From Armillaria gallica (taxonomy: Eukaryota > Basidiomycota > Agaricomycetes > Agaricales > Physalacriaceae), in NCBI GenBank assembly GCA_037576215.1, contig JBANDB010000015.1, positions 62,001 to 126,000 of the forward strand: a stretch of DNA of 64,000 bases, read 5' to 3'. A program made the translations under genes and the position numbers. Positions 23,346 to 63,039 of the stretch are shown piece after piece. The first letter of the stretch is position 1. Each line of letters begins with the position of its first letter. The notes under the pieces are model-generated. The model was not told the DNA's origin. It did no database searches and worked only from the letters and a program-made list of their open reading frames with translations.

Positions 23346-24320
23346 TTTATTCGTCATAGGTGACAGAGCGATGCGAGACTTCTACAAACTGGGAAATATG
23401 CTGTGGCGCCCTTCTCGAGGCTGAGCGCATCGCCACAATTTTATTGTATGTGCTTCCTGGGGGTGATATGCTTCTCATTGAGTGATAAGCGGACACCAAA
23501 TAGAGGCTCGCACTCGTTACCCATACTCTGCCATACCCCATAGATTTTTGGATCCACTGACCTCGTTTGCAGGGAAATTGATGCCATAAACCATACCTCG
23601 GCCATACCCCATATCCCATAGCTTTTTACAAGAATCTCCTCTCTGGCACCCCATACATTTGCCAGTCCGGGGTCAAAATTTGACTAAATATTGGTGATTT
23701 TAAGAATCCGTGTCATCGGGACATTCAAAATATGACTATGCTGAGATATATGTACCCCCGCTAGGTTGAAAACAGGAGGGGGCACCACAGAAAAAGGGCA
23801 AGATTTAGGAACAAGTACATGCCAAAATCACGTGTCATAACACCAGATAACCCGGAGAACCCCTTATAAGCAAGGTAAACATTAGGATTGGTTATAAAGA
23901 TAAGTCACATATCTCAAATTCATAATAAGGGGAATATGAGTTCAAATATAATAACAAATAAACCCAGTGAATGACTACATACCTTTACAATCTGAGCTGC
24001 AATGGGCTGGAGATAATATTTACATATAAGGATTTGAGGAGGTTATAACACTTATCAAAGATTTTATGACAGATTGGTCTGAATTACTGAATATAATAGC
24101 TTACTAGGTCATCATAACTCATATATATCAGTTGGGATCACCACTTTCAGTGCACGAGGCACTGATGGACAGTAATGTGACATTGTTTGGTATAGTAACA
24201 ACAAACAATAGTAGTATCTTGAGCAAAGAGTGAACACTGAACTTGGCCAAAGTCTATGAAACCAGCCAAACCAGCAGTAGCTGACTGACTGCAGGCCCAA
24301 GGAAAACTCCAAGAGACCAA

Positions 24321-25282
24321 TGAAAGGTGCTGAGTGCCTATGAAGATGTGACATGCTACACACACCACACTACACTAAACACTCAGTAATTGCGGTTTGA
24401 AGGGAGGCATGTTATACCAGGTTACGACACTTTGTACTGTAGGATACAAGTTCCAGGTGCAATGAATATGATTTGTATAAATAATATATTGCGGTTTCCA
24501 CTCTAAGTCTGACGTGTCACTGAACACAAACTTAAACTGATACAGAATAACTGCCTGGTGCAGGTTCTGAACTTGTGCTGGCTGCCTGGTGCAGTTTCAA
24601 TACTGATACGTTGCACCTGGTTGCGACTTAAAACACACTGACTGGTTCTGAACTGTTTCTTGGGTCTGACTTTCTGTTTCTAGCTTAATTCTGTTTGCTT
24701 GCTTGTCTGTTCTTGCACACACAAAGTGACCAGGTCACAATCTTTCTATTCCAGGTGAGTCTACAACTTGAAGCTCTTAACCAATAAACCTGTGCTATTT
24801 GCCTGGTAGTGTTCCAGGGGTCAGAAACCTGATTCCCCACTAGATACATGACCTGTATTTATACTATCCTACTGATACACTATTACCAATCCTTTTTACT
24901 ACTGACTAATATGCTTGCTGACCCAGCCTGGTGAGGATAAACACTCTGCCTGGCAGATATTATCTCATCCACAGCTACCAGGTCGATTGATCTCTTATAA
25001 AATCTGGAGATCACATATCGGTGCCTGCTAGAAAGCCAGATCTGGCTGTACCAGGTTGACCGGGTAGCCTGGACTATCAGCTACTGGGTAGAATCCCTGT
25101 GCTTCGTTCTTGGTTTTTACATGTCTTGCTTTATGGTTCCTGGGGAACCTTCTCATTGCTAGTGGTACTTACTGCTGGTTTCTTACTTATTGTAGTTAGA
25201 TAAACTTGCTTGAATTAATTTACAGTGAACTTTATATGTGATTTTCAGAGGTGTATGCTGGGCAGGCATATCACTAACTACA
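24321..25282 (+). repeat. 0.96-kb direct repeat, copy A
   Basis: Begins tgaaaggtgctgag and matches 35522-36483 closely for the first 650 bp (tattgcggtttccactctaag, ctgcctggtgcag, caggtcacaatctttctattc). The match is then more diverged to about the phrase ggtgtatgctgggcaggcatatcac. The second copy lies immediately upstream of the LINE reading frames. Copy A is therefore either a stray 5' part of the same LINE family or a solo LTR of another element. No primer-binding site follows it. Confidence 0.6.
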
Positions 25283-33245: not shown

Positions 33246-33259
33246 TAATTTCATGAAAT

Positions 33260-34440: not shown

Positions 34441-34862
34441 GTGGACATGTTTTGAAGGGTTTCTGCTTAGAGTGCAAGCTTTAAGTCATGTTTAGGGTGT
34501 GTTTAAGTTGTTTGTGGTCACCTGTGTGTGTTGCACGAGACTTATTAAGGGTTTTGTTGGTGTGTGGTGATGTGTTGTGTATTGTAGTACACCTTGCCTT
34601 GAGGCCTGGCGACATCTGTCACCCCTCTTGTTATAAAAGCCTTTGGACTTAGAGAGATCTAGATACCCTATGAGCACTATCGCTATACATGTGTATCATA
34701 TATTCTGAGAGTTTAGTTGTTTTGCTTCAATCTGCATCTATTGCATAATATCCCCCCAAGAACTTGAGGGTTTGTGTGTGTAGTGTTGGGTGTGAGTGCT
34801 ATCAGTGTCTTTGACACTGTTGCATTTCTAGCCTGTGCACACAGAGTCTCTTCACCGGGACC

Positions 34863-35420: not shown

Positions 35421-35521
35421 TCTTGTAATGTTGGACAATTAATACACATTGAGACTGCTGCACACTATCTGGGGTTGTAAGTGTGAATGTAGAATATTAT
35501 AAACCCTCCTGAGTAATACAC

Positions 35522-36483
35522 TGAAAGGTGCTGAGCACCTATGAAGATGTGACATGCTACACACAACACACTACACTAACACTCAGTAATTGCAGTTCGA
35601 AGGGAGATATGTTATACCAGGTTACGATGCTTTGTACTGTATGTTACAAGTTCCAGGTGCAATGAATATGATTGGTTTAAAGAATATATTGCGGTTTCCA
35701 CTCTAAGTTTGACATGTTACTGAACACAAACTTAAACTGATACAGAATAACTGCCTGGTGCAGTTCTGAACTCCTGCTGGCTGTCTGGTGCAGTTTCAAT
35801 ACTGATACTTTGCATCTGGTTGTGACTTAAAACACACTGACTGGTTCTGAACTGTTTCTTGGGTCTGACTTTCTGTTTCTAGCTTAATTCTGTTTGCTTG
35901 CTTGTCTGTTCTTGCACACATGAAGTGACCAGGTCACAATCTTTCTATTCCAGGTGAGTCTACAACTTGAAGCTCTTAACCAATAAACCTGTACTATTTG
36001 CCTGGTAACATTCCAGGGGTCAGAAACCTGATTCCCCACTAGATACATGACCTGTTTTTATACTATCCTACTGATACACTATTACCAATCCTTTTGCTAC
36101 TGACTAATATGCTTGCTGACCCAGCTTGGTGAGGATGAACACTCTACCTGGCAGGTATTATCTCATCTGTGGCTACCAGGTTGATCAATCATACTAAATC
36201 ACCACCAGGTGATCAGATATCTTCCACTGGAATGCTGGGTGATTACACCATGCAAGGCACAGCCTAGACTCTTGGTCTGCTGGATAGAATACCTGATCTT
36301 CTATCTGAGTGTTAGAACTGCTTGTTTCAAAGTTACCAGGTGAACATTTTATCTTACAATGAGTTACTTTCTTCCTGTGTCTTACTTATTGGTACAATGT
36401 ATTTTGATTATATTGCCCAAAAACATTAAGTTACACACATTTTTAAGGGTGTACGTCCAGCAGGTGTATCAACACTGACTGCA
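35522..36483 (+). repeat. 0.96-kb direct repeat, copy B (upstream of LINE frames)
   Basis: Partner of 24321-25282. It begins tgaaaggtgctgag and is followed within 350 bp by the first LINE-like open frame, so it may be the LINE 5' untranslated region and promoter. The pair diverges mostly by transitions. Confidence 0.6.
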
Positions 36484-37590: not shown

Positions 37591-38954
37591 TGATGTGCTC
37601 AGTAACGGCAAGTGGCAAATGGACTAGAGGCTGGCAATGAACACCAACACTAAACCAATCACTAACTCTACACTTATCACCAATGTATTGAATTCAGGCG
37701 TTTCGAGTATAATAGAAGCACTCTGCAAACTTCAATAATCAAGAAAAGTTGTTTAAAGACATTTTATTTCATTACTACTGAGCTATACAAGTGTACTACT
37801 TGCACTAGCAGGGTTGGTAAGACACAATTGGATGAATAGTGACTCGACTTGAGCTACTGCATTCACTCTGACTGGGACTGCTTCAAATTAGTGGCTCTCT
37901 TGGCCCTATACTGTCTTACAAGTGAATAAACACTTGACTAGTTGCTTTCTAGGCAGACTAGTGGCACTCTTGGCCTAAGAATAATACTTTAAACTTCGAG
38001 AACTTGCTTGAACTAACTTTGAAACACTCTTGGCCTTTGCAGGACGTGAAAGATTGCTCTAAGACACTTCTATTCACTCAATGCTATGGGTAACTTAGCA
38101 ACTAGTAGCCACTTTGTCGAGGTTAAGCACAAAAGCCTTTAATTGGGCACTAGATACTGACTAATAGGTCACAATTGCAGGGATGGCTTGCCTAAGCAAT
38201 GCATGTGCCTATTCTACTACTTATATACTGACAAACAAGGTACAATCGAGATATAAATAACTGACTAGAGGGGTATTATTGATAAGGATTTCTTGGCTAG
38301 TCATGAATAACGGTGAATAATCACGCAATAGTCAGCCTAGAAACGGTCGCTTGCTGACTAGTGAGCCTAGGAGCTCTGCTAGCAGTTGTATTCCGTGTCC
38401 TGGGCCCAGCAACGCTCCACTAGTGTCAAGGATAAATGACTAGCCAGGCAAGCATGCCTGTAACAGCTGTCGATCGTGATCGAAGGCGCAGCCTGGCTAT
38501 ACTAGTACCGATCACAATGGATCTGTATCACACTCGTCAGATCTGCTGCAAGGTTAATCTGTTGCTAATTCATTTCTATGTCCTGTTTCGAGATTGCCGC
38601 ATGACTAGTTAACCTGACTTAGGTGTTTATGCCCAGATCAACTTGCTAGTGACTGAACTTCATGAGATTTGTGTCCTCTGCTTCTTGTTTGGTGCACTAG
38701 TCACGTTACTTGTCCACTAGTGGCCATATTCACTTAGCCCTGTTAGCAGTCAAGTCACTAGTATGGCCAGCTGGTAGATTTAACTCACTAGTGGTATCAC
38801 ATCTAAGTCCTGGCTCTACTAGTCGCATACTAGTCTAACTATCAGCTCGAAGCCTCAGCTATAGTCCTTTAAGTATCACTAATGTAAGATAGATATGCAA
38901 TAGTATTATTATAAAATTGCAAAATCTAGGTGTGAACATGAAGACGGCATATCA
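37591..38954 (-). mobile_element. Solo LTR of the gypsy family, in the LINE endonuclease
   Basis: Reverse complement of the LTR at 42368-43735 over its whole 1364-bp length, clearly diverged. It starts TGATGTGCTC and ends GGCATATCA. It is flanked by a 4-bp target duplication GCAG (37587-37590 and 38955-38958), and removing it plus one GCAG rejoins the endonuclease frame (RPDVMA-GDMNI). It holds about 13 ACTAGT hexamers. Origin by LTR-LTR recombination of a full insertion is the standard explanation. Confidence 0.88.
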
Positions 38955-39030
38955 GCAGGAGATATGAATATCACCAAAGACCCAATAGATCGACTCCCAG
39001 CTCATCAGGACTATACCTCAGCTGTAGATA

Positions 39031-42367: not shown

Positions 42368-43735
42368 TGATACGCCGTCTACGCGTTCACACCTAGATTT
42401 TGCGATTTTGTAATCATACTAGCGCATATCTATCTTAGACTAGCAATAACTAAAGGACTATAGCAGAGGCTTCAAGCTGATAGTCAAGCCAGAAAGCTAC
42501 TAGTCGAGCCAGGATTTAGGCGCGATACCACTATTGGGTCAAGTCTATCAGCCAGCGTGACTAGCACCTCGAATACCAAGCGAGTCAGTAAATGACGACC
42601 GCTAGTCGACGGGGTAGCTACGAGTGCACCCAACAAGAAGCAGAACATACAGGTCTCGTGAAAGTACAGTCACTAGTGGAACGGTCTGCGTGCGAGTGTT
42701 TAAGAAGAGTTGACTAGCGGTGCAGCAGTCTCTAACAGGACTTAGAAATGAATTTAGAAATGAAGCGCAGCTGTCCAGATCGGGCTAGTACGATACAGAT
42801 CTATTTACGATTGGAACTAGTATAGCCGGGTTGTGCCTTCGATCACAATCGACAGCTGCTACAGGCACGCTCGTTAGGCTAGCCGTTTATCCTTGACGCA
42901 AGTGGAGCATTGCTGGGCCAAGAACATGGAATGCCACCTCTAGCGGAGCTCCTAGGCCCACTAGTCAGCAAGCGGCCGTTTCTAGACCGACTATTGCGTG
43001 ATTATTCACCATTATTCGTGACTAGCCAAGAAATCCTTATCAATAATACCCCTCTAGTCAGTTATTTATATCTCGATCGTACCTTGTTGGCCAGTATATA
43101 AGTAGTAGAATAGGCGCACGCACGGCTCAGGCAAGCCATCCCCGCAATTGTGACCTACTAGTCAGTATCTAGTGCCCCAATTAAAGGCTTTTGTGCTTAA
43201 CCTCGACGAAGCGGCTACTAGTTGCTAAGTTACCCATAGCATTGAGTGAATAGAAGTGTCTTAGAGTAATCTTTTGTGTCCTGCAAAGGCCAAGAGTGTT
43301 TCGAAGTTAGTTCAAGCAAGTTCTCGAAGTTTAAAGTATTATTCTTAGGCCAAGAGCGCCACTAGTCTGCCTAGAAAGCGACTAGTCAAGTGTTTATTCA
43401 CTTGTAAGACATTACAGGGCCAAGAGAGCCACTAGTTCGAAGCAGTCCCAGTCAGAGCGAGCACAGTAGCTCAAGTCGAGTCACTATTCATCCAATTGTG
43501 TCTTACAAACCCCACTAGTGCGAGTAGTACGCTTGTATAGCTCACTAGTAACAAAATAAAACGTCTTTAAACAACTTTCCTTGATTATTGAAGTTTGCAG
43601 AGTGCTTCTATCGTACTTGAAACGCCCGAATTCAATACATTGGTGATAAGTGTAGAGTTAGTGATTGGTTTAGTGTTGTTGGTGTTCATTGCCAGCCTCT
43701 AGTCCATTTGCCACTCGCCGTTGCCGAGCACATCA
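42368..43735 (+). repeat. 5' LTR of the gypsy element
   Basis: 1368 bp. Contains a TATA-like tatataag at about 43096 and an aataaa at 43553-43559, consistent with U3-R-U5 order. It has eleven ACTAGT hexamers by hand count. It differs from the 3' LTR at nine positions, eight of them CpG transitions. The open frame at 42910-43101 recurs identically in the 3' LTR and is a by-product of LTR sequence. Confidence 0.93.
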
Positions 43736-43737
43736 TC

Positions 43738-43755
43738 TGGAGCCCACCGCGAGGG
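43738..43755 (+). other. Primer-binding site
   Basis: TGGAGCCCACCGCGAGGG begins two bases after the 5' LTR end. It has the TGG start expected for pairing with the CCA end of a tRNA. I cannot identify the tRNA from sequence alone. Confidence 0.75.
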
Positions 43756-44225
43756 AGTTTCAGACTTGATAATCTCGTTGAATTAAGACTTTTATTTGAC
43801 ACTAGTCTTGTTAAATAAACTACTATTCAACCTAGCAGCTTGTACGCAATCTGTCTAACCAAGCCTCAGCGAAAGCAAAGGGCAAAGCTAGAGTAACAGA
43901 GCCCGCACAAGCATCATCTTCGAGGCCAGCACCTAATAGTGCCGCCACAAGACCAAAAGGAAGATCAACAGCCAATTCAAAAGCTGCTGGTGTTGGAGTC
44001 CCATCTAACTACGACTTATTAAAGAATAAACGAAGTGCAACTGCACTGCCTGATAGCCCACAAGCTAGGACAGAGCAGCGAATCAACGCGAATCTTAACG
44101 TCCAACAGACAAGACCCCTTGCACCGCGCCCACGGCGAAGACCTTCCCCCTCTAGTGGATCAACAAACCCACTAGCACCTGGACAATCGAACTCCCAGTC
44201 CATTCAAACCGCTAGTAGACCGATC

Positions 44226-45758
44226 ATGTCTGCTAGCACCCAAAAGATGCCTAGACCGACGTCTAGGGATGCGCCCAAGTTTGATAGTGATGAGCCTGAG
44301 AACTTGCATCGTTTCCTTGGTCAGATGGAGGATTTATTCTCCGACTATAGCATCACCGACGACGACGAGAAGAAGAAGAAACTAGTGAGGTACACGGATG
44401 CGTGTACTGAAGAAGAATGGCAAGCATTGGAGGAGTATGATGGTGGTACCTTCGCCGAGTTCAAGGACGCGATCTTGAAGAACTATCCAGAGGCGGCAGA
44501 CGCAGAGACAGGCACTTGGGAGAGGCTCACGCATATTTCGCGTAAGTTCTCGAACCTTGGGGCTGACGAGCATGAGTCGTACCTGAAATTCAAGCGCAGG
44601 TTCTTGACTGAAGCCAAGAAACTACAGAAGCCTCCAGCGCTAGTCACAAATTGTGAACTAGTGGAGAAATTCACCGAGTCGTTGTCACCTGCGTTTAGAG
44701 AAAACATCGCGTCGCGACTGAGTATCAAGCGTGGAATCAAAAACGCGACAAGTGCGCCCGCCCCTGCTCCTGCTCCTGCTGCTGCCGCAGCTGGTGCTGC
44801 TGGTGCTGCCGCCGCGGGTGCTGCTGTTGCTGCACCTGTAGTCGCGAGACCCATCAAGAGGCATGAAGATATGCACACCCTCGATGAGGTTGTTGCTGAA
44901 GCAGATGATATCGCTCTCAACAGCTCTACTAGTTACCTTCTGTCAGTGACTAGTGGAAGTGTATCATCGACCGGAGCCACTAGTGGTTCTGGAATCAAGG
45001 CAGAATTTGAAGATGTGAAGCAGCAAGTAGCTGCTTTACTTGATCGCATTGACGTGAGTGAGAAACAGGCGAAGGAGCATCAAGAACAAATATTGAAAGC
45101 CTTTCAACAAGGCGGAAATAATAGCTCCTCGTCTAAGCAATCGTGACCTCAGAATGAACACTCGGGAGCGGGACCAAACAACAACTGCTGGTATGACTGG
45201 AAGCCTGGACATTATGTGAAGAATTGCCAGAACATCCAGAAGCATGTAGCAGAAGGTTTGTTGAAGCTCGTCGATAAGAAGTTCATGATGATAGACGGGA
45301 CAGCTATCCTGCGCGAGCCAGCTCATCTCTGCCCAATGGATCGTATGCTTGCATCGTTGAATAAAAGGCAAGAACAGATGTTCTGGGAAGATGTTAGTGG
45401 GCCCGCTGGTATATTCAATATCAACGTACCTGATAACACTTCCTTGTATGCGAACAAGCCTCGAGATGCTAGAGACGAAGTAATTGACAAACTTCACCAA
45501 GATCTGCAATATTGGCAGACTAGTACTCATGTTCCAACATCGGTTCAGCCTCAGTTGTTACAAGCACCTGTACCATCTACTAGTAGTCAGCCAATGAATC
45601 AATCCTTTGACCCTAATGTGTTCTTGAACCAAATGAGGTCACTATTCAATCAGGCCAGTAGTCAGAATGCGACTAGTGGCCAGAACTTCGAAGGTCAGTA
45701 TGTTGCCACACGCACTAGCGGTGGTGAGTCTTCCCAACAGGGTTTCAAAAGGGTCTGA
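44226..45758 (+). pseudogene. gypsy gag (capsid/nucleocapsid), one nonsense codon
   Basis: The frame starts at ATG 44226 and runs to TGA 45756-45758, with one internal TGA at 45144. The N-terminal part (KFDSDEPENLHRFLGQMEDLF) and the following helical region match gypsy capsid proteins of mushrooms. An Ala/Pro run (about residues 178-205) precedes a coiled segment. The zinc knuckle CWYDWKPGHYVKNC has lost its second cysteine (Asp there). The frame stays open upstream to 43836 with a basic Ser/Pro-rich sequence but no ATG. The true N-terminus may therefore have lost its start codon. The stop overlaps the next ATG as TGATG. Confidence 0.8.
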
Positions 45759-47068
45759 TGAAGGCTATGGGGAAGAATAAGTCGATCCCTACGACTATTC
45801 CCCATAAACAGCCAGAGGACCATTTTAAAAACCGACCAAAGGGAACTGAACCGAAGAAATATGCAAAGAAAGCGATTGAACCAGTGTCTGATGAATCTGA
45901 TGAATCTGAAAACGAAATACCAGTACCGAGAGAACCCACTAGTAAGAAAGTCGTTGTGGAAATTCCCACTATCTGACCCACTAGTAAGAAACCGGTTACT
46001 GTAGAAGACGCTAGTGATGATGAGGATGAGGTCCCACGGCGAGAACTACCTTTTAGGAAAGTTCCGAGTGTAAGTTTCATGCCCCTTCCCTCAGATAGCG
46101 CAAACAAAAAGAAAACTAAAGTAAGATTCGATGAATCCAAAGCACCAGCGTATAAACATACGGCGCCTATCCATAAGGAAGGTAGAGTGCAGGATGTCGC
46201 GTCTAAAGTATTGAAAACGCCTATTGTCTTGAATGCAGAAGAACTTATGGATCTGTCGGAGCCATTAAGGAAAGAGATCGCTAAGTTGATGGCCAAGAAA
46301 AGGATTTCGACGCAGCCAGTGACCGAACAGATGTATAGTGCGGGGGAGACTCAACCTGAGTCCGACCCGTTACCATTTAGTGAGACTAGTGATGAAGAAG
46401 ACGCGACTAGTGAGGACTTGTCCTTGAAGTCTGATGCGATCGACATCCATGACTTGCCATCTGGGACGTTTATGGCTGCGCAATTCAATGTTGGCTTGAT
46501 ACCAGCTGGCTCTCTAATTATGTCCAACCCGTATCTTCAGTATCTTGACTCACTAGCGCCAGGAGAAAAGCCTAAGCAGGTAATAGTCACGAAAGACTCG
46601 GCTAGTCTGCGAGCTGTGTATCCAGTAATCAATGGCGCAGGCGAAGAAGAAAGTGTAGTTGATGGAGGCTCGCAGATAGTATCGATGGCTAGTATGATAG
46701 CAACCAAGCTCGGAGTAGCTTGGGATCCTGACATTACCATCCATATGCAGAGCGCGAATGGTCAACTAGAGAAAACCTTAGGGCTAGCAAGGAATGTTCC
46801 GTTCCTTTTCAATGATATCACTGTGTACTTGCAAATACACATCATCGCTAGTCCCGCATATAAAGTACTACTAGGCCGTCCGTTTGATGTCCTCACTGAG
46901 TGTGTAATCAGGAATCATGCAGACGGTGGCCAAATCATTACTATCACTGATCCTAACACTGGTCGAAGGTGCACTATTCCAACCTTCTTGAGAGGTGCGT
47001 CTCCTCGGGTTGCGAAAGCTGTTCCTAAGGCTACGGAAGAGGGTTTTCATTTGAACTCGATGAATTGA
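45758..47068 (+). pseudogene. gypsy protease-containing frame, one nonsense codon
   Basis: Starts at ATG 45758, overlapping the gag stop (TGATG), and ends at TGA 47066-47068. An in-frame TGA lies at 45974. The first half is charged and low-complexity with repeated Pro-Thr-Ser-Lys-Lys. The C-terminal half holds an aspartic protease: EESVVDGGSQIVSMAS (active Asp; a DGG version of the usual D-S/T-G) and later YKVLLGRPFDVL, the conserved ILGRPF-type segment. The domain order matches basidiomycete gypsy elements. Confidence 0.82.
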
Positions 47069-50000
47069 TGAACGATCAAGGAGAGTTAGCCCTGCAAATC
47101 ATGCAGACTAGTGATGGTAAGTTTGAGATTGAAGGCTATATGAAGCCAAAAGAAGGCGCTAGTTTCTCAGAGAAAGAGCTACGCGACAGCTTCCTCATGG
47201 CCTCGATGGCTAGCGAAGAAAACCTTTTGCAAGATGAGCAAGCCAAGGGACTATTGAACTCTTACTTCCAAGGTAAGGTAGTTCCAGAAGGCTATAAAAT
47301 GCAATATCATGTGTGCGAGCACACTAGTGATGGCTCTCCGTTACTAGACAATACTGAAATCCCAATCTATAATGTACTAGTTGATAACTTGCGCGCAAAA
47401 TCGAAGACTAGCCAACCTACAAAGAAAAAGACGGCACTAGTCCCCAGTTTTGAGCACCTTGGTGTGCGCATGAAGAGCCCCGACTTTAAGCCAGTCGCAG
47501 TGCTCACTAGTAAGAAATATAAGCCTGTGGCACTAAAAGTAAAGCCACTATTAGGCGATCTGCCGGACAAGTTTCGAATAGTGAGAGACATTAAGGGTGA
47601 TCCCCTCAAGGACATCCCACTATTGAGCACTAGCCCACCAGAATATGTGCCTACAGCGCGCTATACCCCTGAAAGAAAAGCTAAGATTGACGAAAACCAT
47701 CCAGAAGGATTTCTATGGCCAGAAGAGCGCAAGCTAATGCACCATTTTATGACTATCCAAGAGCAAGCTTTTGCTTGGGATGACACGGAATGTGGGCATT
47801 TCCGAGAGGACTTCTTCCCGCCAATAGATATTCCTGTAGTACTGCACACTCCATGGGTTTTGAAGAATATCCCCATCCCGCCTGGAATCTACGAGGAAGT
47901 CTGTCGGATTATTAAATCCAAGATCGACGCTGGTGTATACAAGCCGTCTAATTCCTCCTACAGATCGAGGTGGTTCTGTGTAATTAAGAAAGACGGTAAA
48001 AGTCTTCGACTAGTGCATAGTTTGGAGCCTCTGAATGCAGTGACTATCGCGCATTCTGGGATTCCGCCGGCCACAGACGAACTATCCGAGCATTTTGCAG
48101 GAAGAGCATGTGGCGGGTGTTTGGACCTGTATGTTGGATATGACGAGCGAGATATCGCTATTGGATCCAGAGACTATACTACGTTCCAAACTCCTTTCGG
48201 TTCGATGCAACTAGTGAAATTACCAATGGGTTGGACTAATTCGGTACCAATATTCCATGAAGATGTAACGCATATCCTACGAGAAGAAATACCACATGTC
48301 ACTCGTCCCTATATCGATGATGTACCTGTACGTGGGCCCAAAACTCGCTATGAAACTGAGGATGGGGGCTTTGAGACTATCCCGGAAAACCCTGAGATTC
48401 GTCGTTTTGTATGGGAACATATGCAGAACATGAATCGAGTGGTTCAACGGATGAAATATTGTGGAGGTACCTTCTCTGGACCTAAGACGTTCTTGTGTGT
48501 TGAGGAAATGACAGTGGTCGGTCATCTATGCACGTATGAAGGAAGAAAAATCGAACCTGATAGAGCTGGAGTCATCAGTCGTTGGGGTCCTTGTCAGCAC
48601 CTCACGGATGTATGAGCCTTTCTGGGCACTTGTGGAGTCTGTCGAAAGTTTATAAGGGACTATTCGAAGATAGCGGAACCACTGGTCAAGTTGACGCGAC
48701 TCAATGTACCCTTCGAGTGGGAGGCTGAACAGCAGCTAGCCATGGACAAGCTCAAGCATGCAGTCGTGACTAGTCCGGCTATTCGACCGATTGACCTCAC
48801 TAGTGATGCAGAAGTGGGTCTATGTGTTGATACTTCATACAAAGCTGTTGGATTCTACATCTATCAAGTTGATGAGAAGGATCCTACCAAGTGCTATTAT
48901 GTGCGCTTTGGTTCAATCACTATGAACGAAAGAGAAGCGCGGTTTTCACAGCCCAAACGCGAGTTGTATGGTCTATTGCGAGCTTTAAAGGCTTGTCAGT
49001 ATTGGCTTATTGGAATTCGCAACTTAGTGGTTGAGACCGATGCGCAGTACATCAAGGGTATGCTAAGCAACCCAGGAATGGGACCAAATGCCACTATCAA
49101 TCGTTGGATAGAGGATATCTTGATGTTTCATTTCACCCTTCGACATGTGAAAGGTAGTACTTTCCCTGCTGACAGACTATCGAGGTGAGATGCGCAACCT
49201 GGCGACGAGATCCATCCTGACTTGGAGGATTACGAGCTAGAGGACCATGGCCCTTTGCAGTTTGAAGTAGCGGAAGGGACTAGTGAGCTGCCGAAGGAAC
49301 TAGAGGAATTTAAGAATGAAATTGATAGTCGAGGTGGTTACATGCATGCACTAGCCACTAGTATCGACGATTTTTCTGTAGAATTAGACGAAGCCCGCTC
49401 TCGTGAACTAGAACTAAGAAATCTTTACTTAGCACAGGAGAAAACCAATGAAACCATATGCCAGTTCTTGAAAGCGACTCCACTCATTCCTGATCTCGAG
49501 TATAAGTTCGATCCTAACAAAAGAGAGGACTATCCAGAGAAACAACAGACTAGTAGTGGACTAGCGCAAGATGGACGGCTGCCACATATCAGGACTTGGT
49601 TGAGGAACCCTAGACACCGCCCAGAAGGACTTAACGACAAGCAGTACTTGACTTTCAAGCAGTACTGTCGTAACTTCTTCTTGGACAAAGAAGGCAGACT
49701 ATATAGATGCAGTACTGAAGGAGACCACCGGCTAGTAGTGGATAAAGAGCATCGAATGTATATGATGAGATTGGCACACGACTCGTTAGGACATAGAGGC
49801 TTTTACGCGACTAAGTCACTGTTGGAGCAACGGTTTTGGTGGCCAGAGTTGGAACAAGACATCAGTTGGTATGTCAAGTCAGACAGAAGACTATGGTCCG
49901 TATTCCACCCTCTGTCACCGAAATGCCTTTGCTATTCCAGAAAGTACACTGCGATACTATGGTTATGACCCCGGTTTCTAATAAGTGCAGGTATATAGTT

Positions 50001-51107
50001 CACACACGCGACTCGTTATCGTCTTGGCCTGAAGCAAGGGCCTTACAGCAAGAAAATGCTAAAGCAATTGCGGTTTGGTTCTTTGAGGATGTGATATGCA
50101 GGTGGGGCTGTCCCAACGAAATAGTAACTGATAATGGCGGACCTTGGGTCGCAGTTATACAGTGGCTAAGTGACAAGTATGGCATCACCGGCATAAAGAT
50201 CACTCCTTACAACTCGCAAGCGAATGGAAAAATTGAAAGAGGCCATTGGGACATTCGTCAATCGCTATTTAAGGCGACTAGTGGCAACCCAAAGAAGTGG
50301 TTTTACTTCCTACCACATGTGTTATGGGCGGACCGTATCACTATCAAACGCGGTACCGGTTGCTCACCATATTTCATGGCACTAGGCGCACATCCAATAG
50401 TACCCCTCGATGTAGTTGAAGCTACTTGGCTAGTCAAGCCCCCAAGTGGAATCTTGAGCACCGAAGACCTTATTGGTATGAGGGCGACAGCACTAGCCAA
50501 GCATGCTAAACATGTAATGGCCATGTGACAGAAAATTAATAAGAATAAGCTCGATACTGTACTACGCTACCAACGCGAGCACAAGGCCACTATTGTCGAT
50601 TACAACTTCAAACCAGGTCGACTAGTGCTTATGCAGAACACGCGGGTCGAGGAAAGTCTCGATAGCAAGATGGAGCCGAGGTACTTGGGGCCACTAGTCG
50701 TTATCAGAAGGACTAGAGGTGGTTCTTATGTTTTAGCAGAGTTGGATGGATCCCTGGTGGGCGGCACAGTCGCTCAGTTTAGAGTAATTCCATACCATGC
50801 GAGGCATAGTATCGAGTTACCCAAGAAAATTCATGATTTGATCGATGTAAGTCCCCAAACTCTTAAGGAGTTGGTGACTAGTGACGAGTCTGTCCCAACA
50901 GAATATCACTATTGACCCTTAGGCAAGAAACTATATGGTATAGACCGAGTTAGGCTGCAACAGAGCGACACTAGTGAGTCTGACAGCGAAGATTCAGGTT
51001 CGGAGGCCGAAGGATACCTTCAGCCTGACGAATATGATAGCAATAGTGATGAAGACAACGAGGTCCCCATCACTAGTCGACTTAGAAGCTTGAAAACTGC
51101 AGGCTAG
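47068..51107 (+). pseudogene. gypsy RT-RNaseH-integrase polyprotein, broken
   Basis: Starts at ATG 47068, overlapping the protease stop (TGATG), and ends at TAG 51105-51107. RT motifs: RSRWFCVIKKDGKSLRLVHS, LDLYVGYDERDIA, TPFGSMQLVKLPMGWTNS, and the catalytic box as PYIDDV. RNase H follows: LCVDTSYKAVGFYIYQ, KRELYGLLRALKA, VVETDAQYIKGML. In the integrase, the HH half of the zinc finger (LAHDSLGHRGF) is present. A deletion just after WYVKS (about 49880) removes the CxxC half and shifts frame. The core Asp (HCDTMVM), Asp (IVTDNGGPW) and Glu (NGKIERGHW) remain, then a GPLVVIRRTRGGSYV tail. TGA stops at 48613, 49186, 50526 and 50913 all fit Arg CGA changes. Confidence 0.87.
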
Positions 51108-51252
51108 AACGTTCAAACACACTTTATATTGCTAGGTAACAACGGTGTATGCTAGATACTGTATCTAAGCAGTTGGAAATTATGAGAAACGACAGACTGG
51201 TGATTGAAAACTTTTATATATAGCGACTAGTGACCGTTCTGAACAGCTAGCG

Positions 51253-52754
51253 CTAGCCAAGCTTGGAACTAGAGGCAACGGGAGCAGGAGAATCGTCTTC
51301 CATAGGTACCGGGAGATGACTTTCGAGCTGCTTGACGACTTGGCCATGATGAGCGACCACAAACTCGCGGTACTTGAGTAAGTACTCGATCTTGTGGGTC
51401 GTAGCAATCACGTCGTTGCAAAGATCAGCCTCTCTAGAGCGCAAAACGCTCTCGGAGGGATTGACATGATCTCCAGCACTGACTAGCGTGGCCGCAGCGT
51501 CGATAGTGCTCTGGCTAGCCTCGTTGTTGATAGCTAGGTCAGCCGCTAGTAAAGGAAAGAAGGTCAATAGTGCATCGCAAAGCTCAATAGTAAGCACGTA
51601 CCAGCAATAGTGAAAGGGGAATCCTTGAAAGCATGGTCAGCCGAGGCACGAGGACGCTTCCTGGCTTGGATAGCAGCCTCGTTGGCCTTCCCTTTGGCGA
51701 TAATCGCTTCGGCGGCCTGGTAATCGTGTAAAGATGAGCCAAAGTCGGCTACTAGTGATATAAAATCACCTGAATAGCCTCGGCACGATGCTCTGCCTTC
51801 TCCTTTTCCCTCTGAAAGAAAACCTTAGACTAGTAAAGAAGAAAACCTGACTAGTAGACTAACCTGAGCAGCCTGAGCAACCTTCTTGTTCTTGAGGAAC
51901 TTGGGGAGCGTAATCTTGTGTCCTTCAACGATGTTACCGGAAGTAGGGTCATGATTGACAATGACATCGACATCTTCATCGATATTCATCTGTTCAAACC
52001 GTGAAATGACGGTATCAGCCTTGCGACGAACAGTAGCTAAGGTAAACAATACCGAGTCAGTTTCCTGCGGCGCATTGGAAGCATCAGGGTTACCCATGAC
52101 CATATCCTCCTCGGTTGCTGCGACAACGCTAGCCTCTTCATCGGATGAGTCCTCGACGATAGCCCATGACTTAGCAAGACGACGGCTTCGTTTGGCAGGC
52201 TAATGGTCAAAACAGTCGGTCAGAAAGCGAAAGAACAATAGCTAGTGAGGTACTCACTCCCTTAGAAGCCTTAGCCTTGCCACTAGTGGCCACGGTTTTG
52301 GCGGGAGTAGCAGGAACAGGATCAGGAGCAGAAGGAGTGGTAACAGTGGCAATAGCACTCACTAGAGCTGCTGATCGCTTTTTGCGCTCGCTATGAATAG
52401 TCCCAGTAAAGGAATGAACGGTGTGGTAGTCCTTGAATGTCGGGATGGTCGGATGCTCATCAAGGATGCGCTCGAAAACCTGCTTCATGCGAAAACACAC
52501 GTCTTCAGCCTTCGGGTCACCTATGATAGCGGCGGCGTGATGGATAATAAGCTGTGCCTAGGACACTAGTCAGCGAAAATTTAGTATAGAAATGACTAGT
52601 GTCCACGTACCCCAATAGCGCAAACGCTCTTGCCCTGGTCAATGATAGTCTCCAAGGGTATGCCTTTTTTCCTGACCTCCCACAACGTGTCGGCGGCTTG
52701 GATGGCATCGTTGCCTTGAGCAATGAGGAGTGCAACGCCGGCAGGATTGGACAT
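51253..52754 (-). CDS. Antisense accessory gene A of the gypsy element, intact, function unknown
   Basis: Six exons on the minus strand: 52754-52611, 52557-52258, 52199-51864, 51811-51770, 51716-51602 and 51545-51253. All five introns are GT-AG (52-58 nt), and the joined frame of 409 aa has no stop or frameshift. I recognise no domain. Visible features: an N-terminal helical region (ALLIAQGNDAIQAADTLWEV), a Pro/Ala linker (about 119-140), a basic patch PAKRSRRLAKS, an acidic DSSDEE patch, a charged coiled-coil-like stretch with REKEKAEHRAEAIQ, then ARKRPR. It looks nuclear. It lies between pol and the 3' LTR on the opposite strand. Five of six ACTAGT sites within the gene are in introns, and its promoter has seven. 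Confidence 0.8.
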
Positions 52755-53170
52755 GACTAGTAACGAGAATTTTGATAGAAAGTTTGAAAACCTTTTGAGT
52801 GATGAAGCTAGTCACGGAGAGAAGTCCACTAGTGAGACGACGAAGTGACTAGTCAACGAGGACGTTGAATTTATAGTGTGGGGGAGAACCGTGCGCTTGG
52901 ACTTAGTAAAAATCTCAACGAAAATTTCGTGAAAATTTCCGAGAAATTTCAATGATAAATTACTAAGGTCCAGACCATGAATAACACCGCTCATGCAATA
53001 TCAACCTGTCAAAAGGAATACCCAAGTCGAATTGAAATGACTAGTGATGAAGGAATCGACCTGAGATCTAATCGATCGCCAATAGTGCATCAAAGATCGG
53101 CCACTAGTGAAAATTCTAAGTCACTAGTGGACTTGTAATTCTGAACGGGTCCACTAGTCACCAACAAAGG
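52755..53170 (-). promoter_or_regulatory. Gene A promoter with clustered ACTAGT sites
   Basis: Reading toward gene A, a TATA box (TATAAAT, minus strand, 52875-52869) lies about 115 bp before the ATG. Seven ACTAGT hexamers occur within 410 bp, at about 52755, 52828, 52846, 53040, 53103, 53122 and 53154. Several near variants (gctagtcac, gctagcgg) lie among them. The density suggests binding sites for a regulator, possibly the gene product itself (inference). Confidence 0.55.
52868..52888 (+). repeat. Internal copy of the polypurine-tract region
   Basis: The sequence gtgtgggggagaa at 52876-52888, preceded by gaggacgttgaatttata, closely resembles gaggacagtcactattttagtatgggggaga just before the 3' LTR (about 56079-56109). 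It may be a second plus-strand priming site or the trace of an internal duplication. Confidence 0.5.
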
Positions 53171-53488
53171 ATCGCTAGCGGTCTGGCAAGGTGTTTGAAA
53201 CAACTATTGGGCATGAGGACTTCACTGATCACACTAGAAAGGGCTTAGAAATATTCCTTACGAATGGAGCTCACATCACACAAAAAGAGCAAGAATAAGA
53301 AAACATTGTATTTGAGTGCCTATCCACACTTGTGGCACTGGCTAATGTAAAAGAAAAACATATGCCCTAAGGGCATGTACAGTAAAGCTAAAATGAAAAA
53401 TTTAGGCTGACAGGCCATACGCTATGAGTCCCTATGAAAACTTGTATAAAAATTTGGTCTCAAGGACCGTGAACCCAGCCGAACCAGC

Positions 53489-55609
53489 CTAGGGACGAGC
53501 GGCAGAGTGACGCTTCTTAGGCGACTTCTTCTTGCGAGTGCGCCGAGGAGAATTAGCCACCCGTAGCTCTGGCTCAAGATCCTGGTTCATATCGCGCAGC
53601 TCCCCTTTTGTCACACGAAACTCGTCCGCCAGCGCAGCCTGTTCCTTTCTGTCTGCAAGCTCAGTATCGGCAGCAAGCTCATCTACCAAAGCATCAGGAT
53701 CGGGAACTGGGGCCGACGAATTCTGGTCGGAATCGGAGTCGTGACCCGAAGGCTCAAGCAAAGACCCTACGACACTGGAATGGGAGTCGCTGTCGGACTC
53801 TTCACCACCGGAATGCAGTGTCACCTCGACCTGCTGGGCAGACTCAGAAGACTTCGAAGGGCCTGGTTTAGAGCGATGTACGAGAGGAGGAGTCGGTTCT
53901 TTGACTAAGAAATTATATCAAAGTCAGTATGACCAGCACCAAGGAAAGAAGAAAAGAGACGCACCAGGCGGTTTAGCAACTGACAGCTCGGGGTTGTCAA
54001 ACGTGTCGAGGACGGTCTTGAGCTCAGCCAGGATGCCTGGGTCTTGGAAAACGATGCCTTTCAAGGCATCAGTGCCCTCGCTCCTGATAGTGTTGTAGCT
54101 GACGCGGAGGGCCTCGTATAAATCAGACCGGTAGTGCAGAGAGGCTTGAGCCGCAGCACTGGCAGTAGACTCGAAAATCTGCAAGGAAGCCGAAGCTCGA
54201 TCGAAGGCGGTGCGGAGGTCTAAGAAAATGGTTCGTAAGAGAAAAGAAAACACAATTAGACGACGACTTACGTTCAGGAGTGGCCTCGGCGAATAAAGCC
54301 AGCTCACGACGTGCGGCGTACCTCTGAAAAGGCTCGGCACAGAAAGAGCATAGGCTCTTCCTCCCAATCTGGCAAGGGCCGCAACGCTTGCCCCAGCCTT
54401 GAAAGACACAATCGGCACCTTGGACACTGGATGAGCATTGAGCACACCCATACAGGGGCTGAGGTGGGAAGTCAATACGAACACAAGAAAGATTGAGTGC
54501 AGAAGAAGTACATACTGCGGGAGGAGCCTTGAGCAAGGCCTGGTATTCGTCCTTATGAACGGGCACGGGTACCTTCTTGATGTAGTGATAGGCTTAAACC
54601 GAGGCTAAGTCAGCATAAGGAGCCAAAGAAAAGGGCGGGGAACGTACTGCTAAGTGGGTTAGTCTCGACGGTGGCCGAAGCGGCAGCCTTGCCCTTCCCT
54701 TTGGGCGTGCTAGCGTCGCCCTCCTCCTTGACTGTGGCGCGTACTTGTGCACGTGCGGCGTGGGAGCTTTCGCCTTTAGCTAGAGGAGCAGATGAGTAGG
54801 CTAGTAAACAAGAAAGAAAGCTGACACTCACCTGTGGACAGTTCGTCCTTCACAGAGCCTGTCTGAGTCTTGTTTAACTTGCGAGGCGGGACCTTGGCAG
54901 TGGTAGTATCGGTGACCTCCTCCGTGGTAGCAGTGCCCTCGAATCTCGACTTGAGGCTCTTGGGTTTTGGGTTCTTCGAAGCAGCGCCCTTGCTGGATGA
55001 AGCCTGAACAGAAAACTATGTAAGAAGGATATCGAAAGAAAAAGAAAGGAGTAGATGCGACCTTCTTATCCTTTTCAGTGGGTTGAATATCGGGGTCATC
55101 GTCCCCGGAGGCATCGAGGTCTTGAAGATCTTGTTCAGCTGGGTGTTTCTTTCCATGGACAGGTTTGGTAGGCTCGGGCAACGCGAAGTTGGAATCCTCC
55201 TTGAGGAGCTCACGCTACAGAAGGTCAGCGCATAAAAACGGAACGAAGCGGAAGGGACTCATGTTGGCACGCTCGTTCATGAAGAGTTCCCACTCCCCGA
55301 AATCCTCAGATCGGTCGGCGACTTCTAACTCCTTCGAAATTTTCTCGCAAGTATACACGAGGTCGTAGAGGAAGTCACTCTTGGGAGTCCCGCTGAGCTG
55401 GCGTGCGCTTTCTATCGCGGAAACCTGTAGAAATCACGCGATGCGTCAGAAGAGGCAATGAATGCCACAGAAAGGCAAACACGCACGAGGAGATCGGTGT
55501 TATGTTCGAGAAGGCGACGAATGTCACGAGGGCGCATCTTGCCATGCTTGTCAGCATTGAAGAGGGGCCGCAGTGAGTCGAACGAGGCGTTAAACTCGGA
55601 TATCTTCAT
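53489..55609 (-). CDS. Antisense accessory gene B of the gypsy element, Zn2Cys6-like protein
   Basis: Nine exons on the minus strand: 55609-55487, 55424-55263, 55214-55062, 55003-54832, 54773-54648, 54592-54516, 54458-54272, 54219-53965 and 53904-53489. They join into a stop-free 556-aa frame. Seven introns are GT-AG. Intron 2 (55262-55215) begins AT instead of GT, while keeping a good branch region (gctgac) and acceptor. Residues 276-311 hold C-x2-C-x8-C-x8-C-x2-C-x7-C-x2-C, close to a fungal Zn2Cys6 cluster, suggesting DNA binding. The C-terminus is acidic/Ser-rich and ends in a basic RRTRKKKSPKKRH. No other domain is recognised. The gene interval has no ACTAGT, unlike the rest of the element, so it may be a later acquisition. 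Confidence 0.75.
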
Positions 55610-56078
55610 GATAAGATCTCAAAGTGCTGGGAGGACGAGTAGAACAAAGAAAGACGCGGTAGAGAAAAAGCAGAGGGACGTATTAAGAGGGAGAACGAAG
55701 CAAAGTGAAATTTTGTCGAAGTCGGACTCTGGTGTACGTTCCCACAGTTTACAAGCTGAGATTGAAATTAAAGTTAGCCGCCCCAGCTGGCTGGCAGCAT
55801 TCAGGCGCTAACGAGGCCACTAGTGGTTATCTGGACGCGAGTTGAGGGATTCAGCTAACTTACAAGAACGATAACGAAGAATAGAGTCCTATCAAAGAAG
55901 ATTGACGCTGTCACACGTGAACCTGCAAATCATTAAATCCAATTTGATGATGTTTGATGGCTAAGCGCCGGACGGACTTAGTGGCGATGACGCAATCGAG
56001 ACCTGTGAACTTGTATGAATTGAGTAAGGGACACCTAGTGAGACCTACTACTGAGTACCAAAACGGACTTGAGTGACT

Positions 56079-56109
56079 GAGGACAGTCACTATTTTAGTA
56101 TGGGGGAGA
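56079..56109 (+). other. Polypurine tract
   Basis: tatgggggaga ends immediately before the 3' LTR (TGATA at 56110). This is the expected position and composition for plus-strand priming. Confidence 0.7.
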
Positions 56110-57477
56110 TGATATGCCATCTACGTGTTCACACCTAGATTTTGCGATTTTGTAATCATACTAGCGCATATCTATCTTAGACTAGCAATAACTAAAGGAC
56201 TATAGCAGAGGCTTCAAGCTGATAGTCAAGCCAGAAAGCTACTAGTCGAGCCAGGATTTAGGCGCGATACCACTATTGGGTCAAGTCTATCAGCCAGCGT
56301 GACTAGCACCTCGAATACCAAGCGAGTCAGTAAATGACGACCGCTAGTCGACGGGGTAGCTACGAGTGCACCCAACAAGAAGCAGAACATACAGGTCTCG
56401 TGAAAGTACAGTCACTAGTGGAACGGTCTGCGTGCGAGTGTTTAAGAAGAGTTGACTAGCGGTGCAGCAGTCTCTAACAGGACTTAGAAATGAATTTAGA
56501 AATGAAGCGCAGCTGTCCAGATCAGGCTAGTACGATACAGATCTATTTACGATTGGAACTAGTATAGCCGGGTTGTGCCTTCGATCACAATCGACAGCTG
56601 CTACAGGCACGCTCGTTAGGCTAGCCGTTTATCCTTGACGCAAGTGGAGCATTGCTGGGCCAAGAACATGGAATGCCACCTCTAGCGGAGCTCCTAGGCC
56701 CACTAGTCAGCAAGCGGCCGTTTCTAGACCGACTATTGCGTGATTATTCACCATTATTCGTGACTAGCCAAGAAATCCTTATCAATAATACCCCTCTAGT
56801 CAGTTATTTATATCTCGATCGTACCTTGTTGGCCAGTATATAAGTAGTAGAATAGGCGCACGCACGGCTCAGGCAAGCCATCCCCGCAATTGTGACCTAC
56901 TAGTCAGTATCTAGTGCCCCAATTAAAGGCTTTTGTGCTTAACCTCGACGAAGCGGCTACTAGTTGCTAAGTTACCCATAGCATTGAGTGAATAGAAGTG
57001 TCTTAGAGTAATCTTTTGTGTCCTGCAAAGGCCAAGAGTGTTTCGAAGTTAGTTCAAGCAAGTTCTCGAAGTTTAAAGTATTATTCTTAGGCCAAGAGCA
57101 CCACTAGTCTGCCTAGAAAGCGACTAGTCAAGTGTTTATTCACTTGTAAGACATTACAGGGCCAAGAGAGCCACTAGTTCGAAGCAGTCCCAGTCAGAGC
57201 GAGCACAGTAGCTCAAGTCGAGTCACTATTCATCCAATTGTGTCTTACAAACCCCACTAGTGCGAGTAGTACGCTTGTATAGCTCACTAGTAACAAAATA
57301 AAACGTCTTTAAACAACTTTCCTTGATTATTGAAGTCTGCAGAGTGCTTCTATTGTACTCGAAACGCCCGAATTCAATACATTGGTGATAAGTGTAGAGT
57401 TAGTGATTGGTTTAGTGTTGTTGGTGTTCATTGCCAGCCTCTAGTCCATTTGCCACTCGCTGTTGCCGAGCACATCA
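56110..57477 (+). repeat. 3' LTR of the gypsy element
   Basis: 1368 bp, 9 differences from the 5' LTR (99.3 percent identity by hand alignment), and eleven ACTAGT hexamers. Most differences show TG or CA here against CG in the 5' LTR. The sequence after it (gcgaactttctg) is not LINE and gives no target duplication. Confidence 0.93.
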
Positions 57478-58979: not shown

Positions 58980-60402
58980 TATCTCAGGCTGTCAAAGTCC
59001 TAAACATCTGTGGTGCCGGACCAGCTGCATTTCTATGTGCTGGAGATGGTCGGTGCCTATTGGAAGATGGCAATTTTCTGAAGTGTTGTCTTAAAGCCGA
59101 TGTAGTGGTGAGTTCATGAAGCGGCCATTTGGTGGGTTTGGCTTCATTATCCTTCATCTATTACTTTGAACTTATCGGTCCCTCACAGATAACCCATGAC
59201 CCGGCATCAAGTATATTCAGCTCTGGGTCCGTGCAATCTGTCGAATCGGTGTCACGATCAATACCTTTCATCGCCAATGTATTCGAATACAACAGCGATC
59301 GGGCAATAAGGATAGACACTGATGCATCTAGGTATCTTCTGTTGATCAAAAAACGGGAGAAGTACACCTATCTCCAATATCAAGATCTCTTACACTTACC
59401 TTTGCATCGCTTTGAAGATTCCCCTCATGTTCAACAAGTACCTTGAGGATACCTACTATACACCTGAAGCCAGAGATGTCTGTCACTGAATCAGTGGGGG
59501 ATAATCATCACCTCTTGCTACATCCATTGATATTCTGACCTTGTAAGTTCTGTTTCTTTGCGACAAATGAAATGTAGTAACTTCCATGGACAGGAGCTAC
59601 GGCGAAGCCATGCCCAATCATTGGCACCCATCAACATCTACTCAGACGGGTCGCGATTCCTTTGTAGTGAGACCATGAGTTTCTTCCGGCACTTCCATAC
59701 AATAAACAGTTTTTCTCCCATCCTTGGATTGGAGCTGCATTTGCGCTGGTTGACTTCGAATCCTGATCCGGGTGTGTTCCTTGCAAGAGCTGTCCTAAAT
59801 TTTGAGGCTGGTGCTACCACAGTTATTCCGGAATCGCGAGTTGTATGAGAACAAATTCACATCGCCTCATTCTCAGATCAGGCTGTTCATCACTTTGGGA
59901 ATCAGTATTGCAACATATGTTATCCTCGATCCGAGTTCTCGTACACCCACCTAATCCTCGATGACTCGGTCATTTCCATTGGTGTCGTATTCCTCCTTCC
60001 CTCGTGCCCAAGTCTGCTGAAAGTCAGTGGCTATTCTCACAGTCGAGTCTTCTTGGACCCATGTTGTTGTCATCACATGGCATTGATTTGATGCAGTCAT
60101 CCTCATGCATCAGCATGGGGATGTACATATTGAATAGAAGCTGTGTCCCATATGGTGTAATTGGTGAACTCCATCAACAGCGCTAGAAGCTTCACTCAGC
60201 GCTTAACTCGCAGTGCGCTTGTTTCGTTGACGAGCTCATTGCAGACAGATTATTCCTCATACAAGGTGGCCAATGTGAATCATGTGATTGAATTCAATCC
60301 GAACTGTCTGGTTCTGAAGGGACAACGTTACGTCGTTAATTCCTTGGACGACATCTTGGCTTATTTTGGGTCGAGCTTTGCGAACAGGGTAAGTCGGAGA
60401 TA
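58980..60402 (+). pseudogene. Unrecognised exon-like segments upstream of HET copy 2
   Basis: A frame AVKVLNICGAGPAAFLCAG...LKADVV (about 59003-59108) ends at a GTGAGT donor. An acceptor (ccctcacag, about 59188) leads to ITHDPASSIFSSGS...REKYTYLQYQDLLHLPL (to about 59446). A further segment with PDPGVFLARAVLNF lies at 59758-59848. Copy 1 keeps the same junctions and several of the peptides. I do not recognise the family, and both copies have frame breaks. Confidence 0.35.
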
Positions 60403-60812
60403 AAACTTTGCCGTTTGGGCGCTGATCATCATCACAGCCTCTGGATGATGCTTGCTGTGTGCATGGAGTTCCGATATATTTCAGGTGCAAAGGAGAAAGG
60501 ACTATTATTCTCTCCTCATAAATACGACATGAACATCGAGATCGAGAGTGGAGGTCATTTTTCATGACTTTGAACTCGCTCATAACACAAAACAAACTGC
60601 AACATCATTTTTTCTTATTTGATCATTAACAAGCGCCATACAGCATTTTGATACTGGTTCAAAGCCTCGATGTCAGGCCTGAGAATGCTGCGGAGATGGC
60701 CTTACCTGAAGTACGATGTACAATGCGATGACTTCATGCACCCTTGGTTATCAAGCCTCTTATACCTGTACTAGCAACTCGCTACACATCTGACTGAAAG
60801 TCCGAGTCGAGC

Positions 60813-62671: not shown

Positions 62672-63039
62672 TGTGAGTACAGGCTTTTCAGCTGGCTGAA
62701 GCACTATTAATGATTCGATCAATCATTGAATCCACCTAGGTTGCCGCAAGTTTACAGAGCAACTTCTGATCTTATGACATACTTATGAAGGGAGCTGTCC
62801 GTGTATTAAAGAGAATATTCATCACCCAGTATATTACACCTCACGAATAAACTGAAAGACGTTTATAATTTGGTTATACTTGCCGTCGAGATTTATAAGG
62901 ATAGCAGCGAAAGCTTTCCTCATCCCTGAGATGCACTTTAACCGTAGTTAGGATCCAGAAGCTGCGACAATGAAGGAAAATTAAAGCACCCTCAGTGGCG
63001 AAACACTCTCACCGGCTTATCTGTTTTCCATCAAAGCTC

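Follow-up and report, generated by a model that had tools for sequence, protein, structure and literature searches.

Phased copies of the palindrome ACTAGT fill a Gypsy retrotransposon of the fungus Armillaria gallica

Introduction

In the gypsy element of Drosophila, sites for Su(Hw) form one local cluster in the 5′ untranslated region and are read by a zinc-finger protein encoded by the host. The periodic An/Tn clusters (PATCs) of Caenorhabditis elegans have a period of about 10 bp. The cited part of the literature describes PATCs as countering silencing and as belonging to non-coding DNA of the host (PMC7725773). For VANDAL elements of Arabidopsis, the cited sections report that VANC proteins recognise arrays of family-specific motifs and that this binding removes silent marks; the VANC21 motif, YAGTATTAY, lies in non-coding tandem repeats and has a demonstrated element-encoded binder (PMC5735166, PMC10398659). 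In nucleosomal DNA, as the passage cited has it, WW dinucleotides (W, A or T) in phase and SS dinucleotides (S, G or C) out of phase at about 10 bp are the known pattern (PMC6735720). Here, we analyse 64,000 nucleotides of Armillaria gallica (assembly GCA_037576215.1, 28 contigs, 86 Mb; contig JBANDB010000015.1, forward-strand positions 62,001 to 126,000), referred to as the window, which contains a Ty3/Gypsy retrotransposon at 42368-57477, the focal element, densely occupied by the palindrome ACTAGT.

Judged from the sequence, the array probably represents family-private sites for a putative sequence-specific and probably homodimeric DNA-binding protein that would mark or coat the chromatin of the element, the likeliest benefit being protection from silencing. 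An earlier note on this DNA had drawn attention to the abundance of the word. The helical phase of the sites, their nucleosome-type background, the absence of sites from gene B and the different palindromes of related families go beyond that note. Among the results listed by searches of open-licence papers, there was no report of this array, nor of a motif lattice in a retrotransposon.

Results

ACTAGT is in large excess in the focal element

The focal element is assigned to Ty3/Gypsy by its pair of long terminal repeats (LTRs) and by the Pfam order RT_RNaseH, Integrase_H2C2, rve; the weak points of this assignment are that rve and the protease score below the Pfam cut-off and that the piece before the RNase H (47065-48612) has no Pfam match. 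Its parts, together with a related solo LTR, are as follows.

42368..43735, plus strand: 5′ LTR, 11 ACTAGT; 22 sites, weak variants included, on one 10.25-bp lattice
44226..51107, plus strand: gag/pol region, several open reading frame (ORF) pieces in the focal copy, 30 ACTAGT, short-range phase (pairs up to 110 bp)
51253..52754, minus strand: gene A, antisense to gag/pol, predicted 413 amino acids (aa) and 6 exons by our own splice model
53489..55609, minus strand: gene B, predicted 564 aa and 9 exons by our own splice model, one intron of 30 bases, Cys-rich segment, no ACTAGT
53159..55818, no strand: interruption of the array, with the nearest ACTAGT at 53153 and 55819
56110..57477, plus strand: 3′ LTR, 11 ACTAGT, 99.3% identical to the 5′ LTR
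37591..38954, minus strand: solo LTR of a diverged subfamily, with 13 ACTAGT and 85% identity to the 5′ LTR; lattice of 10.246 bp (R 0.95) formed by 21 sites, strong and weak

Exact counting bears out the massive over-representation that had been claimed: of 86 ACTAGT in the window, 68 lie in the element (11 in each LTR and 46 between them), 13 in the solo LTR and five in the remaining 47,528 bases. A first-order Markov background predicts 4.6 for the whole element. Over 42368-53159, where 56 were found, the expectation is 3.3 at first order (Poisson P ~1e-47) and 8.6 at second order (~1e-26), the latter background already including the trinucleotides of ACTAGT itself, so that the excess is exceptional by the Markov comparison that the earlier note had proposed. 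The same note spoke of enrichment throughout the element. This holds for the LTRs, gag/pol and the gene A region but not for 53160-55800, where gene B and its flanks (2.6 kb) have no ACTAGT against 45 in 43736-53159. Its count of five background sites was right, as were the positions 2054, 6090 and 22871; those given as 29029 and 58889 are at 29030 and 58887.

The array runs through LTRs, introns and coding exons, as had been stated, and in gene A it occupies exon 2 and three of the five introns. Codon or dipeptide bias was rejected as its source, since sites also fill LTRs and introns.

The spectrum of enriched words resembles that of a binding site

Aligned on their base composition, 70 sites with their surroundings outline a palindrome of about YSACTAGTSR. 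Relative to unrelated sequence of the window, enrichment is 38.5-fold for ACTAGT, 9.5-fold for ACTAGC, 9.0-fold for ACTATT, 7.2-fold for GCTAGC and 4.1-fold for ACTAGA, and is absent for TCTAGA (0.8-fold), CCTAGG (1.0-fold) and ACTAGG (0.4-fold). On these last three values, a generic preference for CTAG or for TA steps was rejected. With TCTAGA and CCTAGG not enriched, the graded spectrum reads as the profile of a putative binding site and not as a mere CTAG preference.

Sites fall on the helical repeat

Distances between neighbouring sites cluster at 20/21, 30/31, 41/42, 60-63, 72, 82/83, 92/93, 102/103 and 144 bp; some, among them 53 and 78, fall elsewhere. The 48 neighbour gaps of at most 200 bp give R 0.74 at 10.22 bp. 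When ACTAGT and five weak variants are taken together, the 22 sites of the 5′ LTR lie on a lattice of period 10.251 bp (R 0.85) and the 21 sites of the solo LTR on the 10.246-bp lattice listed above, each over about 1 kb. The two lattices are not independent proofs because the LTRs are homologous, even though 12 ACTAGT positions differ between them. Strong sites are phased at 10.2 bp in the solo LTR (p 0.0002), the 5′ LTR (0.0044), gag/pol (0.0002) and the gene A region (0.0024), as judged by jittering sites by up to 5 bp; in the four compartments with enough pairs, their mean cosine is 0.64-0.93. Weak variants keep the same phase as ACTAGT (GCTAGT/ACTAGC, R 0.79, 30 pairs; AATAGT/ACTATT, R 0.86, 27 pairs), and the little-enriched AGTAGT/ACTACT do not (R 0.05, 11 pairs).

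A scan of 4-mers covered the 5′ and solo LTRs together with 33 segments of 833-1400 bp (the LTR of a second family described below, and loci L063-L068). ACTA and CTAG in these two LTRs were the outliers, with n × R-squared of 14-20 against 10.1 for the best word elsewhere. CTAG in positions 1-24000 of the window shows no phase. Across the genome, ACTAGT pairs at spacings 7-37 gave 1086 matches and the reversed pattern 573, the latter being an imperfect null since its word, TGATCA, could be clustered too; among the matches listed, 59 of 60 distinct pair places had a spacing of 11, 20, 21, 30 or 31 and one of 12. We give this result little weight because many of the places look like copies of one LTR.

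A nucleosome-type pattern surrounds the sites

In the LTRs and gag/pol, WW is most frequent at whole helical turns from the sites, with a phase of -0.1 to +0.5 bp, and the SS maximum lies half a turn away, at about 4.7 bp. The gene A region has the same pattern in weaker form (p 0.02-0.09), and control CTAG sites in unrelated sequence have no SS pattern and a small WW one at another phase (p 0.04). Masking all hexamers within two mismatches of the motif does not abolish the pattern in the LTRs, where AA/TT still has phase 0 with a relative amplitude of 0.34-0.43 and GC a phase of 5 bp; in the element interior, amplitudes after this masking are 0.13-0.18 for AA/TT and 0.21-0.24 for GC. AA/TT/TA in phase and GC in antiphase at about 10.2 bp match the pattern of a nucleosome rotational positioning sequence, less clearly near gene A. 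No WW/SS signal at 10.25 bp was detected over gene B and its flanks, 53160-55800 (z 0.2), in contrast to the remainder of the element. If the DNA were wrapped as this pattern suggests, the minor groove of CTAG would face the octamer and its major groove would point outward.

A purely physical positioning code, in which wrapping is favoured by TA steps spaced at 10.25 bp without the involvement of any specific protein, would account for the period and for WW in phase with SS in antiphase around the sites. It would also fit the LTRs, where WW/SS power at 10.25 bp remains 3.7 and 3.6 after masking of one-mismatch sites; the range for segments outside the element is 1.0-2.45, and several of them have a peak close to 10.2 as well. 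However, the masked interior (2.0-2.25) falls within that background range, an exact hexamer is favoured (ACTAGT 38.5-fold against 0.8 and 1.0 for TCTAGA and CCTAGG), ACTAGG likewise shares CTAG and is not enriched, ACTATT breaks CTAG and is enriched, and another family uses CCWGG, which has no TA step. We therefore consider such a code rather improbable as the whole explanation.

Sites turn over at constant density

The solo LTR had been said to keep the density of the array despite its divergence, and it does, single sites toggling between strong and weak forms. Of the 12 ACTAGT not common to it and the 5′ LTR, 11 have, at the matching place in the other LTR, a word that differs from the motif by at most two bases. 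Seven occur only in the solo LTR, opposite ACTATT, ACTAGC, GCTAGT, ACGAGT, ACTAGC, GCAAGT and one unrelated word; five occur only in the 5′ LTR, opposite five one-mismatch forms. Gain and loss at a kept density, which the earlier note had put forward for examination, is therefore what the two LTRs display. Among 12 copies of gene A, 187 of 226 sites are kept, compared with 131 expected from other non-CpG hexamers in the same alignments, a figure that is merely descriptive because the copies are related. In 30 LTR copies aligned with the solo LTR, non-CpG columns vary at 0.0083 within sites and at 0.0136 elsewhere.

The earlier note had named descent from a satellite as a competing origin. A satellite-derived repeat was rejected: flank identity between sites is 0.286 and 0.276, barely above the 0.253 and 0.258 of random positions. 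More broadly, a neutral history, with the word spread in the absence of selection by a tandem satellite, by biased mutation or by gene conversion, would fit the sharing of most sites by descent among copies of a family, but it sits poorly with these flanks, with coding-exon sites in two frames, with weak-strong toggling and with the retention in gene A, non-independent as those copies are. It is already disfavoured, and we regard it as highly improbable.

In the same 30 LTR copies (L001-L030), 13 have a matching 4-bp target duplication, which in 10 of the 13 is CG-centred (CCGC, CCGG, ACGG, TCGG, GCGG); this would fit a preference for inserting at NCGN. The focal element lacks a matching duplication.

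The word appears to have shaped the protein

In gag/pol (44226-51107), 28 of the 30 ACTAGT lie in ORF pieces that were read. Two frames are used, as had been reported, eight sites encoding Leu-Val and none falling in the third frame; the Thr-Ser sites in those pieces number 20, against 22 in the earlier note. Thr-Ser pairs occur 28 times against 8.7 expected from residue frequencies, and 20 of the 28 are encoded by ACTAGT. In the aligned relatives L066-L068, Thr-Ser is present at only 2 of 27 compared positions and Leu-Val at 6 of 11. At Thr-Ser sites, then, the DNA word appears to have shaped the protein. The proposal that the constraint acts on DNA and not on protein gains support from the placement of sites in LTRs, introns and exons, from their helical phase and from Thr-Ser pairs that mostly lack a counterpart in relatives.

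Related families carry other words

Homologous pol stretches of 4.0-4.4 kb were compared between the focal family and three others, L066, L067 and L068. The focal pol contains 15 ACTAGT, no TCTAGA, no ATCTAG/CTAGAT and 4 CCWGG. The corresponding counts are 2, 6, 12 and 8 in L066 (identity 73% over the query piece), 2, 0, 2 and 41 in L067 (60% identical) and 0, 2, 2 and 4 in L068 (72% identical over the core). In L067, CCWGG is thus a private word whose array is no sparser than that of ACTAGT in the focal family. L066 has a moderate ATCTAG/TCTAGA array, with 19 ATCTAG against 4.4 expected over its 6-kb locus; TCTAGA in pol alone is weak (6 against 1.7). Although L066 sites form no lattice, its TCTAGA sites lie at WW phase 0 (p 0.01, 11 sites).

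The CCWGG word also fills the LTRs of a second Gypsy family within the window.

24318..25150, plus strand: LTR of the second Gypsy family; its CCWGG sites (ACCWGG-type) form a private array in helical phase (jitter p 0.0016)
35519..36185, plus strand: second LTR copy of the CCWGG-family element, 93.4% identical to 24318-25150, same motif, weaker phase (p 0.05)

CCWGG sites of the first copy have a mean cosine of 0.52 over 20 pairs and those of the partner 0.40, motif and phase having been tested there on 35519-36400. Genome matches of this LTR at C6:4596574, C3:1231792 and C4:1407411 each lie about 3 kb from a pol of the L067 group, and therefore LTR and pol of one family share the word. The second element, 24318-36185, is older, as its LTR identity of 93.4% indicates; its interior has no ORF of at least 200 aa and no CCWGG excess.

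Two further candidates were set aside. CATCGA in L063 is not counted as a private motif, being inflated by copies inside a long internal duplication, and the TCTAGA-type enrichment of L064/L065 is weak by Markov tests, with no clear phase. L063, which carries a relative of gene A at 48% identity, has CATCGATG-type words in excess, partly inflated by its internal duplication.

Genes A and B as candidate readers

Homologue searches with genes A and B scored, for each, the 8000 candidates with the most words in common with the query. Among the matches listed, 54 relatives of gene A are from Armillaria and Desarmillaria and 21 of gene B from Armillaria. The ratio of non-synonymous to synonymous substitution (dN/dS) for gene A is 0.21-0.43 against the seven of 12 compared copies without stops, and 0.32-0.72 against the five with stops; by this measure, purifying selection acts on gene A. 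The array is present at every gene A locus from L033 to L062, at 3.6-7.2 ACTAGT per kb. Because it is constrained and these loci all carry the array, gene A would be the first candidate for an element-encoded binder, and gene B the second. Gene B may be a late arrival in the element, or it may be excluded from the array for a reason. Its profile found only chance-level matches in the PDB (E 0.47 and 0.68), and the structure model of its relative P0056 is poor (predicted local distance difference test, pLDDT, 51).

The sites could instead be read by a host protein, either an activator or a silencing factor, each family being tuned to a different one. In favour of this, the matches listed for gene A include none near L066 or L067, families with other words in their pol. 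On the other side, an activator should not require sites in coding exons and introns as well as promoters, selection on the element should remove sites that serve silencing, and related families use unrelated palindromes. A host reader thus seems unlikely, if less so than a physical code. Many methyltransferase sites are short palindromes, and the private motifs are short perfect or W-centred palindromes, as expected if a palindrome-specific methyltransferase labelled or protected each family with a DNA modification. Such a mark would leave the helical phase unexplained, and no methyltransferase family was matched in the six relatives of genes A and B scanned; we regard the idea as highly improbable.

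Other features of the window

Two ORFs adjoin the solo LTR at 38964-41229, the second of which matches the DDE_1 transposase. Segments 10722-13657 and 59740-62681 are paralogous, with 74-78% identity, and the former holds a 627-aa ORF at 11765-13648.

Discussion

Our results are consistent with a mechanism in which a family-specific protein would recognise the palindrome YSACTAGTSR, probably as a homodimer. Sites would be arranged for chromatin, neighbours tending to whole turns of 10.25 bp with AA/TT/TA and GC phased around them, so that the CTAG minor groove may be turned toward the histones and the major groove toward solvent. Many sites would then be open to the protein on a single exposed face, and by occupying them it could mark the chromatin of the element or coat it. 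The likeliest benefit would be to shield the element from silencing, by analogy with VANC and the VANDAL elements of Arabidopsis.

Several observations weigh against this proposal. The long-range lattice is seen in the LTRs only, the interior being phased at short range; of nine 1.2-kb windows over 42368-53167, only three have their highest peak at 10.2 bp, one of the three being the LTR. Where copies of gene A have gained sites, the phasing is only weak (mean cosine 0.35, 61 non-independent pairs). No phase was seen for CCWGG in L067 pol (mean cosine 0.01, 34 pairs) or for CTAG in L066 (-0.01, 31 pairs), and L068 has no clear motif. With regard to the reader, gene B lacks any ACTAGT, the gene A relatives of L063-L065 (47-48% identity) lie in DNA with 0.1-0.4 ACTAGT per kb, no excess, and no gene A match was found at the L066-L068 loci among the matches listed. 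For these last two reasons, gene A has no simple correspondence with a single motif. No Pfam match above the cut-off was obtained for six relatives of genes A and B, the gene A profile had no PDB sequence match at E<=1, and the model of the gene A relative P0001 (90% identical, mean pLDDT 57) had no PDB fold match at E<=0.001.

A wider reading, which we offer tentatively and with more doubt than belief, is that Gypsy families of this fungus may write private palindromic addresses on the helical repeat of chromatin, even through their amino-acid sequence. An element-encoded protein would bind grooves that face outward on nucleosomes of the element and coat it with a shell for self-recognition and anti-silencing, and reader and word would change together when families split. 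If true, selection imposes a single exact word on coding and non-coding DNA alike, keeps it at a constant rotational setting, is strong enough to alter protein, and rewrites the word as families diverge. The sister families would then be a natural experiment on the co-evolution of a DNA-binding protein with its whole set of sites and on the reading of nucleosomal DNA by a factor, and anti-silencing by fungal retrotransposons would become directly testable.

Among known systems, the Su(Hw) sites of gypsy resemble the array as clustered sites in an LTR element, and differ in forming one local cluster and in having a host-encoded reader. The nucleosomal WW/SS pattern demands no one exact hexamer and no difference between sister families, and the focal array departs from it in both. 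The likeness lies in WW in phase and SS out of phase at about 10 bp, as the cited part of PMC6735720 gives it. PATCs are likewise helically periodic DNA, and the cited passage portrays them as anti-silencing; they are A/T runs in host non-coding DNA without a family-private palindrome, such as the focal array has within a retrotransposon. Going by the cited sections on VANC, the VANC21 motif YAGTATTAY is not a perfect palindrome and lies in non-coding tandem repeats, whereas the focal family has palindromes without tandem repeats, 20 Thr-Ser and eight Leu-Val sites being coding. The focal array also differs from VANDAL in its helical phase, in its Gypsy retrotransposon and in a reader that is putative only. 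No VANC relative was seen, homologues of genes A and B being listed in Armillaria and Desarmillaria only and the six relatives scanned lacking a Pfam match above the cut-off, with no VANC sequence compared directly. Within those sections, the closest likeness is nevertheless to VANDAL and VANC, where, as here, a short motif is repeated within one mobile-element family and related families carry other motifs.

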